Shown piece after piece: positions 56,890 to 64,000 of a stretch of 64,000 nucleotides of DNA. The DNA lies in the IMG/VR virus record IMGVR_UViG_3300032249_001192, positions 1 to 64,000 of that record; one strand, written 5' to 3'. The number at the start of each line of letters is the position of its first letter. Positions within the stretch are counted from its first letter, which is position 1. The notes under the pieces were generated by a model that did not search any database, was not told the origin of the DNA, and saw only the letters and a program-made list of their open reading frames with translations. The DNA is from a virus. The translations under genes were made by a program, and so were the position numbers.

Positions 56890-57270
56890 ATGAAATACTT
56901 TTATTGTGTTATTTTAACGGTTGTTTTATCCCAGAACGTCTGCGCTCAACAGTGGTCTAATCCTGAAAATGCTAATCTTACAAATAGTATGACAAATTTA
57001 ATGGTTAATTTTGGCATTGCAGGAATGCAAACGGCACAACCTTCTTTAGCAAATAATACTAATTCATATTTAGATTATCAAAATGGATATTATCAAGAAC
57101 TACAAAATAGTTTAACTAAAACTGAAATATATTTTCAAAAAAGACAAACTAATATGTACTACAGAGAACTTGAAGTTATTCAAAAACGAGAACTTAAAGA
57201 TCTTAAAAAATATAATCAGTTGACGATACCAGAACTAAATAGGATTTTTGATAGAGATATCAGAAACTAA
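56890..57270 (+). CDS. Exported protein, 126 aa
   Basis: Signal peptide MKYFYCVILTVVLSQNVCAQ with likely cleavage after CAQ or CA; the Cys does not fit a lipobox cleanly. The mature part is polar with a helix-rich C-terminus (YYRELEVIQKRELKDLKKYN). Last gene of the rightward operon, converging on the subtilase gene with a 4-base overlap. Unknown; may modify the host envelope. Confidence 0.65.
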   Translation: MKYFYCVILTVVLSQNVCAQQWSNPENANLTNSMTNLMVNFGIAGMQTAQPSLANNTNSYLDYQNGYYQELQNSLTKTEIYFQKRQTNMYYRELEVIQKRELKDLKKYNQLTIPELNRIFDRDIRN

Positions 57271-58202
57271 AATACCGGATTAATAATTCCATATCCTTGG
57301 TACTTTCTTATTCCTTTATATCTAGGATTTTCTAAAGAAATAGCATGTAGTTTAAATACTTCTATATAGTCTTCGTATGTTTTAAGTTGATATTTTTTAT
57401 GCTTATTATTATAGCTTAATAATAAAGAAGCACAACCAACCACAAATGGATTACTCATGCTGGTTCCACTCATACTAGCATATCTATTTCCTGGAACACA
57501 TCCAATAATATTGTGACCAGGAGCTAAAAAGTCTAAATCATCTCCACTACAAGTAAATGAAGTACGATTCATATTTTCGTCTATCGCCCCTATAGATATA
57601 GTATTTTTATATCTAGCAGGATACATTATCTCAGCATTCTCTCCGCTATTTCCAGCAGCGCAAAAAACAACACATCCCTTACCATTAGCATGTGTTATAG
57701 CCTCCTCTATAGCTTTTGATGGTGCGGGTGAACCAAGGCTCATGGTTATAAAATCTACATCTCCGTGATCTGCAGCCCAGTAAATCCCATCTGCAACTGT
57801 GTTCATTGATCCTGACCCATCGTCTCCAAGTGATTTAATCGGAATAATTTTAGTCATAGGAGCAACGCCAACCATACCAAAACCATTATCTGATGCAGCT
57901 ATTGTAGAAGCAACATGGGTTCCATGCCCAGCGCCGTCTATTGGTTCTTTATTTTGGTTAATAAAGTTTTTCCCGGGTAATAAATTATCTACTAAGTCTT
58001 TATGAGTTAAATCACATCCTGTGTCTATAACAGCTACGACCACTCCTTCTCCTTTAGATTCTTTCCATAGATTCGGTATATTAAATTTTGTAAGTTCCCA
58101 CCCTTTGAATTGTGGATCATTTACAGATAGTCCATATACATCTTCTCTGACATATGGTAATAGAGAGATATTGTTTTTCTTTTTAAAAAAACCTCTAGTC
58201 AT
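57267..58202 (-). CDS. Subtilisin-like serine protease (S8)
   Basis: 311 aa. Full triad: Asp60 (VVVAVIDTGCDLTHKD), His93 (GAGHGTHVASTIA), Ser248 (YASMSGTSMSNPFVVG); oxyanion Asn185 (FCAAGNSGENAE). No signal peptide and only ~40 residues before the catalytic domain, so no classic propeptide is evident. It lies with a trypsin-like protease beside Thr/Pro-linker proteins; processing of surface proteins or attack on host surface proteins are both possible. Confidence 0.92.
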   Translation of the reverse strand: MTRGFFKKKNNISLLPYVREDVYGLSVNDPQFKGWELTKFNIPNLWKESKGEGVVVAVIDTGCDLTHKDLVDNLLPGKNFINQNKEPIDGAGHGTHVASTIAASDNGFGMVGVAPMTKIIPIKSLGDDGSGSMNTVADGIYWAADHGDVDFITMSLGSPAPSKAIEEAITHANGKGCVVFCAAGNSGENAEIMYPARYKNTISIGAIDENMNRTSFTCSGDDLDFLAPGHNIIGCVPGNRYASMSGTSMSNPFVVGCASLLLSYNNKHKKYQLKTYEDYIEVFKLHAISLENPRYKGIRKYQGYGIINPVF

Positions 58203-58204
58203 GA

Positions 58205-58951
58205 TTACTCCTTAGTTTTTGCTAATATTTCTGTTATCCATTCAACATGATCGCTAATTCGCGTATGTCCACTTTCTGTACCGTACGTTGATCGTACAGC
58301 ACCCTTTTCATGTATTACACAAGAATTAATTCCTGCTATTTTGTTGTCTATAAATAATCCACCACCACTATCCCCACTCCCTATACAAAACTCAAGTTCT
58401 GTTCTATTAGATCTAGAAGGAGAACATATTAAAAGTCCCCGATCAATTCTATCTACAATATTAGATCCTGCTCTTTTTTTATCGTCAGAAATATTTGCAC
58501 CAGTTAGAAAAGTTCCGGTAATCCCATAACCGGAGATAGAGCAAACTTTACCAGTTTCATTAGTTTTTGTATATAGCTCAGGATACCAATCTAATCCAAT
58601 ATTTTCTTCTAAAAAACATATTGCAATATCGTGATAACCAAATTGATCAGAATTATATTTGGGATGAATAATAATTTTAGCCACTTTTATATTTTTACCA
58701 TTTATTTCAACAGCACAATCTATAATATCTTCTACCATATGGGCAGCAGTTAATACTACTTTATCTTTATGTGCAACTCCAGAACCAAAAAAGGGTTTAG
58801 TGTCTGGCATTTTCCCTTTTACTTTAGAAACATAAACGAACTTGGATCCGTATGAGACATATTTAGAGTCTGGAGTATTAGGGTCTATGGTTCCAGAATA
58901 AGCTACAGAACCTATCAAGAATACTACTAAAGATAGTAAAAATTGACGCAT
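58205..58951 (-). CDS. Trypsin-like serine protease (S1), exported
   Basis: 248 aa. Signal peptide MRQFLLSLVVFLIGSVAYSG. Triad: His71 (KVVLTAAHMVED), Asp108 (GYHDIAICFLE), Ser195 (IGSGDSGGGLFID). Cys residues at 79, 137, 176 and 189 (by count) could form disulfides, fitting periplasmic or external action. 2 bases upstream of the subtilase gene, so the two are co-expressed. Exported S1 proteases are rare in phages. Confidence 0.9.
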   Translation of the reverse strand: MRQFLLSLVVFLIGSVAYSGTIDPNTPDSKYVSYGSKFVYVSKVKGKMPDTKPFFGSGVAHKDKVVLTAAHMVEDIIDCAVEINGKNIKVAKIIIHPKYNSDQFGYHDIAICFLEENIGLDWYPELYTKTNETGKVCSISGYGITGTFLTGANISDDKKRAGSNIVDRIDRGLLICSPSRSNRTELEFCIGSGDSGGGLFIDNKIAGINSCVIHEKGAVRSTYGTESGHTRISDHVEWITEILAKTKE

Positions 58952-59258
58952 GGTTTTGCACTTTAAGAGAGTAGGGGCGATTCTTAACCTTATTTAAATA
59001 CACCGAGCAATCATTAATCACATCAACATTCCAACTACTATAATCCATTAAATGGCCAAAAATAAAATGACAATTAGGACATAAAGTAATAAGATTAGTT
59101 AAATCCAACTCTCTGCTTGGATTGACATGAAAAGGCTCTATATGATGTACCTGAATTTTTTTGCATGAACCGCAAGCCATGCAGCAGGGTTGTGATAGTA
59201 GGTGTTTTTTTCTTACTGATGTCCATTCAGGAGATCTGTCGGATAAAATATTCCACAT
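58878..59258 (-). CDS. HNH nuclease, 126 aa
   Basis: RSPEWTSVRKKHLLSQPCCM, then CMACGSCKKIQVHHIEPFHV and LDLTNLITLCPNCHFIFGHL: CxxC, HH-I-x-P and CxxC of the HNH fold ('w..vRk..l...p.C..CG....l.vHHI.pfh..P..eLd..Nlit'). Active His and zinc ligands intact. The C-terminus runs 74 bases into the trypsin-like gene in another frame, an unusually long overlap. Free-standing homing or defence-type nuclease possible. Confidence 0.82.
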   Translation of the reverse strand: MWNILSDRSPEWTSVRKKHLLSQPCCMACGSCKKIQVHHIEPFHVNPSRELDLTNLITLCPNCHFIFGHLMDYSSWNVDVINDCSVYLNKVKNRPYSLKVQNHASIFTIFSSILDRFCSLFWNHRP

Positions 59259-59834: not shown

Positions 59835-62273
59835 TTATACAATAGGATTATGCTCAAAAAAGTAAACATCTGAGTCAGCAACAACCCCATTATTAGTTAC
59901 TCTACACCACAGCTTATAGTAACCTCTGCAACTCCTATTAAACCTAATACTATTTGGATCTAATGTATCAATGGAATTAGGTATAGATCGCGTCCAACAA
60001 GGAGAAGTAAGCATAATGGGAGAAGTCGGGGATGAGCAATCTCTATCATAGTATATGGCCCACCATTCATATATTGTATTTCCCTGTGGGTTCTGAATAG
60101 TAGAGCTTACACTAAACACATCACCATCTCTAGTAATATCAGAATTTAATGGATCAGTTATGATGCAATCACTGAGACATCGTGGGAATTGATCACTCCG
60201 TGGGTGAAACTGATTACCGTTACATCCATTAGTGGTCGTATTGTTTTTTGTAAAAGATATCGTGGTTGGCGGACAAATAAATGACCCCGCAACAACAATA
60301 TCGTTAGGTATACATACCGCTAATACAATATTATTGGATGGATTTTTTAAGACTACTCTTCCAATACCATTATGACACCTTTCCCCCGCACAAACCAGCT
60401 TTAATTCTGTTAAACTACTTGTTATTATATGATTATTTATAGTAAAAACACCCTCTCTATATCCTCCGTCACCAGCATTATTTAAATTAGCTTGTCCTAT
60501 TAAAATGTTATCTATATAGAAATCAAAAATAGCTCTATTACAACTATGTCCGCCTCCGCAATTAACTGGATCATATGAGACTATTGCGGTATAGCCATAC
60601 AGATCAATACCTGCAGCTAAACATACTTCTGGTTGTGGTGGGGGTGGGGGTGGCGGCACCGCAGGTATTATTATATCTCTAATATTAGATCTTGAACAAC
60701 AAGTTCTTCCCCCAATACGTAACTGTATATTAGATGCTCTATTCCCTCCTGGAGATATTATAGAGTTTGGTATGTATAGTTTGAGAATTTTGTGATCACA
60801 ACCAACAACTGCTGCTCTAGTAGGATTCGGAGTTTTTGTTACTGTGGGTGTTAGCGTTATTGTAGATGTTACCGTAGGAGTAGCCGTAACAGTTGGAGTT
60901 GCTGTTGACGTAGTTTTAATGGTGGGAGTAATCGTTAAAGTTGGAGTTGGTGTTGGAGTTGATGTTTGCGTTGCTGTGACGGTTATTGTTGGTGTTGGTG
61001 TGGGGGTAGAAAATAGACCATCTCCCACACTATTTGCACTAACACAGGTTGGATCACTATCGCTTTGAGTAGCATACTTCCAATATCCAGCATTGGTTCC
61101 TCCACCCTTATAATATGCTGCTTTATACCATTCGTTTTCCGTTGGAATGTGGTATTTTGCGCCAGGATTCCTAGCCACAGCATCTCCGGTAGTACTGCCA
61201 TTTAAAGTATAGGCTCCGTCTTCAGTAGTGCTGCTGTTTTGAGACCCAGTTGGTTTTCCGTTATGTAGCCAATTACAATATCTTGCACAGTCAAACCAGC
61301 TTACATATATTACCGGCTTGTTTCCGTAATTAGTTTTTACTGAGTAAGTGTAGCTTCCACTAGCTCCTGATCTATTGATCGCCGACCCCTGAATCGAATT
61401 ACTCGCCATATTGACATTGTAAAGAGCATACGAGTCAGTTGCGGCAACAGCATTCAAAAATTCAACATATTCACTATTAGTAACAAGATATTTTCCCACG
61501 GCGTAGCTGTAACCAACACTGCCTCTTCCAACTCTTCCTCCAGTATCAGGAGAGTTGTTAACATCACCCACAGTCACAAAGTTAGAAAGGACTAAAGGAT
61601 TAAGTATGGAGAAGGAACTGGCGATACGAAAACCGATGATATTGATCACTTCCGACGTGGTGGAGGCGGGTAGGCCGAGGGAGGGCGACGCCAAGTAGAA
61701 TGCAGCAGCATCGCCCCAATAGCCGCCCCGCAACTCGCGAGCTGAATCATTCCACTCATAGACTTGCCCAATTTGATCATAAGTACCATATGCACTAGGT
61801 CCACCATTAGTTCCAACAGAGGTGACATTGCCATTTTTACCATCCCAATCAGCACAATAATTAAAATTAGCAGAGTTAGATCCCGGACACAATGAGTTAA
61901 ATACTAATCTGTTATTTCCTCCCATATATCCATGGTAATAACAGTAATAGCTTAATTCTGGTGGTTGTGCTCCTACTCCATTAACAGTAATTGTTACATT
62001 ACCATAGTAAAAGTCATATGACACTCCACCAACTGTTTTTGTTAGTTTATTATTAACGTCTCCAGAATATGATATAAATGATTCATAGCCTGAGTTTAAA
62101 ATTGCAATAGGATGAGCAGAGGGGACTCCTGTTAAAGTATATGTACCTATTTGATATCCTAGTTTATGATCAAGATTATTAGGATCAAAACCCGGACCCT
62201 CTGCAAAAGTAAAGTTGTAATTTCCTTCAACAGCGGATACTGCTGTATTATTTCTCATACATCTAATTATCAT
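59835..62273 (-). CDS. Multidomain surface protein: cupredoxin-like, permuted FGE-like and Thr/Pro stalk
   Basis: 812 aa from ATG 62273 (ATGA overlap, SD GGAG). Residues ~15-120: beta domain ending YYCYYHGYMGGNN, a C-x2-H-x2-M type-1-copper-like ligand set. Residues ~125-220: the second half of a formylglycine-generating-enzyme-like domain (SAYGTYDQIGQVYEWNDSAR, RELRGGYWGDAA, IIGFRIAS). Residues ~225-420: the first half (YAVGKYLVTNSEYVEFLNAV, VIYVSWFDCARYCNWLHNGK, YHIPTENEWYKAAYYKGGG). Residues ~420-480: Thr/Pro stalk. Residues ~490-812: Cys-rich beta domains with an Ala-Val-Pro8 linker. Probably a virion adhesin. Confidence 0.75.
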   Translation of the reverse strand: MIIRCMRNNTAVSAVEGNYNFTFAEGPGFDPNNLDHKLGYQIGTYTLTGVPSAHPIAILNSGYESFISYSGDVNNKLTKTVGGVSYDFYYGNVTITVNGVGAQPPELSYYCYYHGYMGGNNRLVFNSLCPGSNSANFNYCADWDGKNGNVTSVGTNGGPSAYGTYDQIGQVYEWNDSARELRGGYWGDAAAFYLASPSLGLPASTTSEVINIIGFRIASSFSILNPLVLSNFVTVGDVNNSPDTGGRVGRGSVGYSYAVGKYLVTNSEYVEFLNAVAATDSYALYNVNMASNSIQGSAINRSGASGSYTYSVKTNYGNKPVIYVSWFDCARYCNWLHNGKPTGSQNSSTTEDGAYTLNGSTTGDAVARNPGAKYHIPTENEWYKAAYYKGGGTNAGYWKYATQSDSDPTCVSANSVGDGLFSTPTPTPTITVTATQTSTPTPTPTLTITPTIKTTSTATPTVTATPTVTSTITLTPTVTKTPNPTRAAVVGCDHKILKLYIPNSIISPGGNRASNIQLRIGGRTCCSRSNIRDIIIPAVPPPPPPPQPEVCLAAGIDLYGYTAIVSYDPVNCGGGHSCNRAIFDFYIDNILIGQANLNNAGDGGYREGVFTINNHIITSSLTELKLVCAGERCHNGIGRVVLKNPSNNIVLAVCIPNDIVVAGSFICPPTTISFTKNNTTTNGCNGNQFHPRSDQFPRCLSDCIITDPLNSDITRDGDVFSVSSTIQNPQGNTIYEWWAIYYDRDCSSPTSPIMLTSPCWTRSIPNSIDTLDPNSIRFNRSCRGYYKLWCRVTNNGVVADSDVYFFEHNPIV
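60835..61010. repeat. Thr/Pro-coding repeat tract (60-residue stalk)
   Basis: Plus-strand GTTGGAGTT/GTTGGTGTT-type units coding TPTxTxTPT on the minus strand, linking the FGE-like half to the C-terminal beta domains. Confidence 0.85.
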
Positions 62274-64000
62274 GGTATAATATCTCCAAAACATTTGTTG
62301 TGTACTGAATAAGAATAATATCCAGGATTTGCTGGGTCACAATCAACGGCAGAACTTGGTAGTGCTGCCCAGGTGTTGCTATTATCTAAAGAGTATTCAA
62401 TATCACAACAACATAGTTCGTTTTTCTCTACTTGTAATTCTACTATAATACCACCATCAACTAATGAGCCGTCTATGAATCCATCACAAACAATTATTGC
62501 TGGACAGTATGATGGAGATGGTGTTATTGTGGGGGTTGGCGTTAGTGTAGGAGTAGGAGTTGGTGTTACACATATAGATTCTAAACAATATATTCCAGAG
62601 AATACTGTCCATGAACTAGAGATCGGTGAAGGAGAAGTAGATATTGAATCGTTATATGCTGAAGAACAATCGGTAAAATCAATGGCTCTTATTCTGAAAG
62701 TTAATGGTCTACCAGCAGTATTTATACAGGTTCCGTCTCCTCTTATAATATCGCTACTAGTTAAAGTATACGTATAAGAAGTAATGCTTGTATTAAAAAT
62801 ACAAATATTGTCTACTATGTTGCCAGGTAAGCCGCTACTACCGCGACTATCTAATGTTTGTATTTGATAACCGGTCATACATGCTTGGTTACGACCATTA
62901 GTACCCTTTAACCAATCTAATATCACTGTTGCTTCTGAACCAGATATACCAACAGATGAGCATGAAGCAGATATATTATTGACTGTTGGCGCAGCAAGTG
63001 CACAATTGGGTGTTGGTGTAGGAGTTGGACTTTGACTAGGAGAAGGGGTACAACAATTACAGTTGCTTGTATTACCTTCAAATGTCCATATTGGAGGAAT
63101 ATTACACTGACATGCAGTAGATATTCCAGTTATAGTTAATCCTCCAACACAAGAGATATTAGCATTTGCTGTCCATTTATTAGCACATGATCCAGCACCA
63201 GTATATGCTACACTAGGATCACAAGTAACAGACATAAAGTATGTGTCACCACAAGCCAATGTTCCGCTACTAGTCCAATAATTAGGCATGACCTTCGTAA
63301 ATAATAAGTCTAAAGATATGGTTCTGGTCACATTACTACAATTTAATACAAATGTAGTCAAACCATTCCATTCACAGCAGGATTGTTTACTTGGTGAGGG
63401 GGTTAATGTTGGAGATGCTGTTAATGATGGAGTAGGAGTTAGTGTTCTTGTAACTGTTTGAGTTGGTGTTCTTGTTGGAGTAGGAGTACAGCAAGTACAA
63501 TTAGTAAAATCGCCAATGAAACTCCAAATAGGAGGAGCATTACATTGACATGCTTCTTTTATTCCGGTAATTATTAAACCAGTAACACAGGATATTGTCA
63601 ATGAGGAAGTCCATTTATTAACGCAAGAGCTGAATCCTGTGTATCTAACAGTTGGATCGCAAGTGATAGTAGCACTAAACGTATCCCCACATAATAAAGT
63701 CCCACTAGCCTGCCATCTATTTGCTGCTGTTTTGGTATAAGTTACTGGAATAACTAAATTACCACAAGAAGCATCAAATTCTAAATATGTATTACCATCC
63801 CATTCACAACAGGTAACTGTAGATGGACTTGGAGTATTTGTTGGAGTAGCAGTAATTGTGATAGAAGGAGTAATAGAAGGTGTTACTGTGGCAGTAGCAG
63901 ATCTTGTAACAGTGATTGTTGGAGTTTGACTTACTGTGATACTTGGTGTTAGCGTAGGTGTTTGCGAAGGTGTTCTTGTTTGTGTATTAGTTTGAGTAAT
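62270..64000 (-). CDS. Thr/Pro-linker surface protein with two tandem Cys-rich modules, partial at 5' end
   Basis: The frame is open from the right edge (no stop from 64000), so the N-terminus is outside. Order: Thr/Pro tract (64000-~63825), Cys-rich module A (starts TCCEWDGNTYLEFD), Thr/Pro tract, module B (starts SCCEWNGLTTFVLN), a short Pro linker, a fibronectin-III-like domain (ATVILDWLKGTNGRNQACMT), a Pro/Thr linker and a small C-terminal domain (CCDIEYSLDNSNTWAALPSS). Modules A and B are ~110-residue repeats sharing GTLxCGDTxxxxxTCDPxV, SCxNKWT and CQCNxPPIWxFxG. An apparent start at 63601 is a TTG inside module A and is not the real one. Confidence 0.78.
   Translation of the reverse strand: MTQTNTQTRTPSQTPTLTPSITVSQTPTITVTRSATATVTPSITPSITITATPTNTPSPSTVTCCEWDGNTYLEFDASCGNLVIPVTYTKTAANRWQASGTLLCGDTFSATITCDPTVRYTGFSSCVNKWTSSLTISCVTGLIITGIKEACQCNAPPIWSFIGDFTNCTCCTPTPTRTPTQTVTRTLTPTPSLTASPTLTPSPSKQSCCEWNGLTTFVLNCSNVTRTISLDLLFTKVMPNYWTSSGTLACGDTYFMSVTCDPSVAYTGAGSCANKWTANANISCVGGLTITGISTACQCNIPPIWTFEGNTSNCNCCTPSPSQSPTPTPTPNCALAAPTVNNISASCSSVGISGSEATVILDWLKGTNGRNQACMTGYQIQTLDSRGSSGLPGNIVDNICIFNTSITSYTYTLTSSDIIRGDGTCINTAGRPLTFRIRAIDFTDCSSAYNDSISTSPSPISSSWTVFSGIYCLESICVTPTPTPTLTPTPTITPSPSYCPAIIVCDGFIDGSLVDGGIIVELQVEKNELCCCDIEYSLDNSNTWAALPSSAVDCDPANPGYYSYSVHNKCFGDIIP
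63825..64000. repeat. Thr/Pro-coding repeat tract at the window edge
   Basis: At least 58 codons of TPS/TIT-type repeats (e.g. [19 protein letters not shown]) running off the window. Shorter tracts of the same kind are at ~63395-63490, ~63005-63045 and ~62515-62570 within the same gene. Confidence 0.85.

Follow-up and report, generated by a model that had tools for sequence, protein, structure and literature searches.

A formylglycine-generating enzyme (FGE)-type domain encoded at 61005-61883(-) of the window (the whole stretch of viral DNA that was analysed, 64,000 nucleotides) has its two halves in swapped order, and is supported as a single, complete, circularly permuted domain, by its sequence as to the order of the parts and by structure prediction as to its compact fold. 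In the collections searched, the permuted order is widespread in uncultivated phages, and the normal order is kept by the bacterial relatives. Taken as a whole, the observations are best explained, with rather high confidence, by a permuted and complete domain of the FGE-subtype lectin fold that is an old phage feature, is likely to be of tandem origin and would act as a binding scaffold.

The open reading frame (ORF) hosting the domain extended over 59835-62294(-) (819 aa) when read from the upstream ATG at 62294; residue numbers of the window protein follow this reading. An in-frame ATG at 62273 overlapped the stop codon of the upstream ORF (ATGA), so that this start (812 aa), the one adopted in the earlier note, is probably right and more likely than 62294. 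The parts of the gene are listed in Table 1. The N-terminal domain (aa 22-130) had invariant AHPIA.LN and Y-C-x2-H-G-Y-M-G-G motifs and was also present in 29 other uncultivated viral loci, with the Cys and the His missing in two members. A cupredoxin-like motif (His, Cys-x2-His-x2-Met) was seen in this domain by eye only; no solved relative was found, and a PDB profile search for cupredoxin identity was empty. For the Cys-rich C-terminal region (aa 496-819), no family was found in the Pfam search.

Table 1. Positions in the window of the gene, its parts and its upstream neighbour.
Feature	Position	Strand	Remarks
Whole gene, modular phage protein	59835..62273	-	ATGA overlap; 812 aa, or 819 aa from 62294
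N-terminal 'HPIAIL...YYCxxHGYMGG' domain, aa 22-130	61905..62231	-	Common to other uncultivated phage contigs
C-half of FGE-type domain, aa 138-228, first in protein	61611..61883	-	NSANFNYCADW...GTYDQIGQVYEWND...RGGYW...GFRIASS
Permutation junction, old C- and N-termini fused, aa 225-238	61581..61622	-	About ASSFSILNPLVLSN
N-half of FGE-type domain, aa 232-430, second in protein	61005..61601	-	NPLVLSNFVTVGD...VTNSEYVEFLNAV...PTENEWYKAAYY...DPTCVSANSVGDG
Pro/Thr-rich linker, aa 431-495	60810..61004	-	
C-terminal region, aa 496-819, Cys-rich	59838..60809	-	
Upstream neighbour, 720 aa, same Pro/Thr-linker style	62270..64000, on to contig position 64432	-	

The Pfam profile PF03781 matched two stretches of the window protein in swapped order: profile positions 34-133 corresponded to aa 260-406, and profile positions 158-191 to 61743-61847, upstream in the protein. 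By score, the protein belonged to the family (best E-value 8.5e-16; score 58.8 bits, cut-off 23.3), but the halves were not in the canonical order in one chain, as the C-half preceded the N-half. The swap recurred when the family profile was compared with solved FGE-type chains; in 5aoh, for example, query positions 160-279 aligned to 46-172 and query positions 39-104 to 199-264. Both profile matches bear out the proposal in the earlier note of an FGE-like domain with its halves swapped, and the residues that it had given for the junctions were correct: in canonical bacterial proteins the same ends ('...SVGDG' and 'NSANFNYCADW...') were joined by few residues (N194 to C1 gap of 12-15 nt). Since the canonical N end and C start lie only few residues apart, the permuted form lost almost nothing. 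A linker some 12 residues long (GFRxAS..NP..L.NFV.VGD) connected its old ends. As in a circular permutation, each segment was present once, the order was rotated, the old termini were fused and the new termini fell in a former loop.

Loci obtained by searching viral contigs and, in a single search, bacterial and archaeal genomes were scored with separate hidden Markov models (HMMs) for the C-half and the N-half. In viral loci, a C-half was followed by an N-half in 121 different cases; 112 of these pairs, all non-identical, deviated from a zero gap by no more than 30 aa after correction (median gap 1 aa). When the permuted domains with near-full-length halves were clustered, 100 groups remained at 90% identity, 85 groups at 70% and 61 groups at 60%. 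All bacterial pairs (103-105, in 80 loci that were the best 80 of 119 relatives) were N-then-C within a domain. The permuted order occurred in none of the bacterial ORFs among those best 80 of 119 relatives, beyond which rarer permuted copies are possible; the query of the bacterial search was a permuted domain, and should favour permuted matches. Canonical copies in viral contigs were mostly PEP-CTERM proteins on bacterial-looking contigs and were left out of the phage count. L039, L268 and similar entries filed as viral carried tandem PEP-CTERM FGE-like genes and are probably bacterial DNA. Likely phage canonical copies were few (L025, L263, L264, L026 and L259/L260). Among 50,697 phage records, tblastn found no relative of the window domain or of the protein at viral locus L022, and a control query matched 1,177 records.

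An assembly artefact or a rearranged contig, which the earlier note had named as a way in which its proposal could fail, would have nothing in its favour beyond the unusual order itself; with the same order in about 100 distinct phage domains, and in dozens of contigs and samples independent of one another at 40-72% identity, its probability is practically negligible. In these domains no more than about 1-4 aa lay between the fused old termini, and each part was present once. Some proteins consisted of the permuted domain only (L022, 315 aa; L044, 336 aa; L175, 329 aa; L185, 324 aa), and the domain began at most 60 residues from the frame start in 33 of the 87 ORFs beginning with such a domain.

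AlphaFold2, run on an alignment of 47 permuted sequences, predicted a compact single domain (mean pLDDT 89.2, pTM 0.89), and gave similar values for a canonical bacterial control, L055, with its own alignment (pLDDT 89.0, pTM 0.90). This is the prediction that the earlier note had proposed for deciding between a circular permutation and two adjacent incomplete copies, and it favours the permutation. That the two halves are leftovers of a tandem array and do not make up a single domain is extremely unlikely: bacterial NCNC tandem doubles do contain the same C1-N2 unit, and several units per ORF are frequent in phages, but some 100 distinct domains hold no part more or less than once and share a short junction that hardly varies, a conservation not expected of decaying copies. 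Several proteins are the permuted domain and nothing else, the model is one confident domain, and a second cut site, described below, again leaves each part once. Of the two readings in the earlier note, the permutation stood and the incomplete copies did not.

After the halves were re-ordered, the permuted domain and L055 were 53% (N-half) and 55% (C-half) identical, and their secondary-structure states agreed at 92% of the aligned residues (76% where either was helix or strand). With the canonical L055 model, Foldseek returned 75 PDB matches at E<=0.001, with TvpA (2y3c) and CarF (5aoh) first and FGE close behind. With the permuted model it returned no match in PDB or in BFVD, a viral library; the simplest reading is that a sequential structure search misses the permuted order, although a partial match of half a domain might have been expected. 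Secondary structure, model confidence and homology point to the same FGE-subtype C-type-lectin fold in the permuted and the canonical forms.

A further reading keeps the fold and distributes it over two chains, the C-half of one completing the N-half of another in a domain-swapped oligomer (for instance a trimeric fibre, or subunits chained head to tail). The linker from GFR to the first N-half strand is short, in bacterial tandem proteins these two ends are connected from one domain to the next, and the proteins of the phages are probably tail components that form multimers, all of which agree with an exchange. Against it, the N- and C-termini of the canonical form must be close to each other, to judge by the nested insertion at locus L026 (see below), so that a short linker suffices within one chain, and the monomer was modelled as a compact unit with good confidence, a prediction that cannot by itself exclude exchange between chains. 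Domain swapping is considered unlikely, and a domain complete within one chain is preferred.

A FastTree phylogeny of 218 domains, with the halves put in a common order, placed all 104 permuted domains and only 5 canonical ones in one clade (SH-like 0.998). The N-half alone grouped 103 of the 104 permuted domains (SH-like 0.995), the corresponding value for the C-half alone being 0.977, and a maximum-likelihood tree of 45 taxa (IQ-TREE) kept the permuted domains together with a UFBoot of 78-84. Because the permuted domains group together in the trees, a single origin of the permutation is likely but not proven. In bacterial NCNC tandem proteins, the corrected C1-N2 gap (3 residues ten times, 8 residues once) resembled the phage junction, so that a plausible route is for the middle of a tandem pair to have been excised. 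The likely origin is a canonical domain that was duplicated in tandem and of which the middle part (the C-half of copy 1 plus the N-half of copy 2) was retained; in the present domain a short linker joins the original N- and C-termini, and the new ends fall in the loop by which the halves are normally connected. Direct descent from a particular bacterial tandem pair was considered and rejected, as no such pair was sister to the permuted domains in the trees. In the collections searched, the permuted arrangement is an old, inherited feature of the phage domain family, with bacterial relatives lacking it.

Rearrangement is not frozen in this family: a second cut, nesting and an apparent re-permutation were found. 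In one small lineage (L196/L248), a second cut site gave the order N142-191, then C, then N1-140, with every part present once. In L026 (ORF from 2104 (+), aa 935-1416), a permuted domain had a canonical-order FGE-type domain nested within its N-half. In L259/L260 (aa 10-549 of a 1495-aa ORF) the order was C-N-C, and the last two parts formed a canonical pair inside the permuted clade; this looks like a return to canonical order, on long branches that make the placement less secure. That uncultivated phages diversify a lectin-type host-binding scaffold through its topology, by the ancestral permutation, the second cut, the re-permutation in L259/L260 and the nesting in L026, is a tentative and rather doubtful suggestion; if true, a change of topology would be a way to new binding-face geometry without a retroelement.

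In the GG..GFR segment, the window domain had no Cys, and thus no FGE catalytic cysteine pair; among the 104 permuted domains, 69 had none in this segment, 26 had one, 4 had two and 5 were not parsed. As the catalytic pair is missing, formylglycine formation is unlikely, and the window domain is probably not an enzyme. As the catalytic cysteines are lost, the domain probably has a binding role, as a scaffold within a modular tail or surface protein. The L022 gene lay directly after one of 1247 aa that was tail-fibre-like and combined an Mtd_N domain with phage-tail repeats; the L003 gene followed a gene with a Phage_tail_C tip domain. Pro/Thr/Ser linkers separated the units, several of which were present in some ORFs. 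Alignment entropy peaked at 3.3 bits in the block immediately preceding GFR (elsewhere 0.6-2.5 bits); this block corresponds to the variable region in proteins of diversity-generating retroelements (DGRs; PMC5006420). The Mtd_N and tail-tip neighbours on these two contigs, the linkers and the site of variability argue for a host-binding scaffold; the domain is probably a binding scaffold on a tail or surface protein, its context taken from the L022 and L003 contigs, and the lectin-type variable surface would be presented to host or environmental glycans or proteins.

The domain could also be a DGR target whose variable region has been moved to the middle of the protein. Its probable FGE-type fold is that of the DGR targets TvpA and Mtd (PMC5006420) and its variability peaks in the variable-region equivalent, but reverse transcriptase (PF00078) was found in 0 of 20 records (the 69.5-kb record of the window and 19 related ones, some of them possibly fragments) and was detected in control genomes. 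A DGR is very unlikely on this count. The remark in the earlier note on the use of the fold in receptor binding fits a binding scaffold, probably with no DGR involved.

The 69.5-kb record of the window contained genes for a phage DNA polymerase, a DnaB-type helicase, a UvsX-like recombinase and a ribonucleotide reductase. Adjoining the locus was a protease-like pair, both on the (-) strand, subtilisin-type at 57267-58202 (motifs by eye) and trypsin-like at 58205-58951 (Pfam E=2.8e-15), and beside the proteases was an HNH-like ORF at 58878-59258(-) (CMACG..VHHIEPFH..NLITLCPNCH, by eye only). Just past the window (L206:2437-4746; contig 64436-66745), an actin/ParM-like protein and a RuvB-like helicase were recognized by eye. 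At L022:6949-9225 (+), a 759-aa protein with about 11 DUF5122 beta-propeller repeats came immediately after the stand-alone permuted domain.

It is uncommon for a natural circular permutation to define a whole lineage, and the present one affects a fold used by phages and DGRs for binding. Profile searches and sequential structure searches recover only one half of the domain, or nothing, so permuted proteins are hard to annotate. With canonical, permuted, second-cut and nested forms, the family is a natural experiment on chain topology against folding and binding-face orientation, and stand-alone proteins of about 315 aa make the topology question testable. The fold and the family are known, and no published description of the permuted phage form was found: FGE-subtype DGR proteins are already well described (PMC5006420, PMC6328139), the C-type-lectin-like collagen NC1 is listed in PMC3779223 under segment swapping and not circular permutation, and the part of the literature searched yielded no FGE or C-type-lectin domain of phages with a circular permutation.

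FGE itself (SUMF1 and bacterial FGE) and its paralogue SUMF2 have PF03781 in common with the window domain, with profile matches to 1y1e, 2aft and 1y4j, but the window domain differs in its swapped order and in lacking the catalytic cysteine pair. Canonical FGE-sulfatase-domain proteins of Planctomycetota, Verrucomicrobiota and others (L055, L065, L072) carry the same motifs, and the halves of L055 have the identity and predicted secondary structure given above; they differ in their N-then-C order and, in some, in a PEP-CTERM-like tail, and have an apparent secretion signal and a C-terminal anchor (by eye) where the phage proteins have Pro/Thr linkers instead. From the DGR targets Mtd, TvpA and TaqVP (PMC5006420, PMC6328139), the phage domain differs in being permuted, with reverse transcriptase not found and no evidence of targeted mutagenesis. 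It probably shares their fold subtype, TvpA (2y3c) being the best PDB match of the canonical relative, and it resembles them in variability placed before the final GFR-like strand, and in tail-fibre context, through the Mtd_N gene beside L022.
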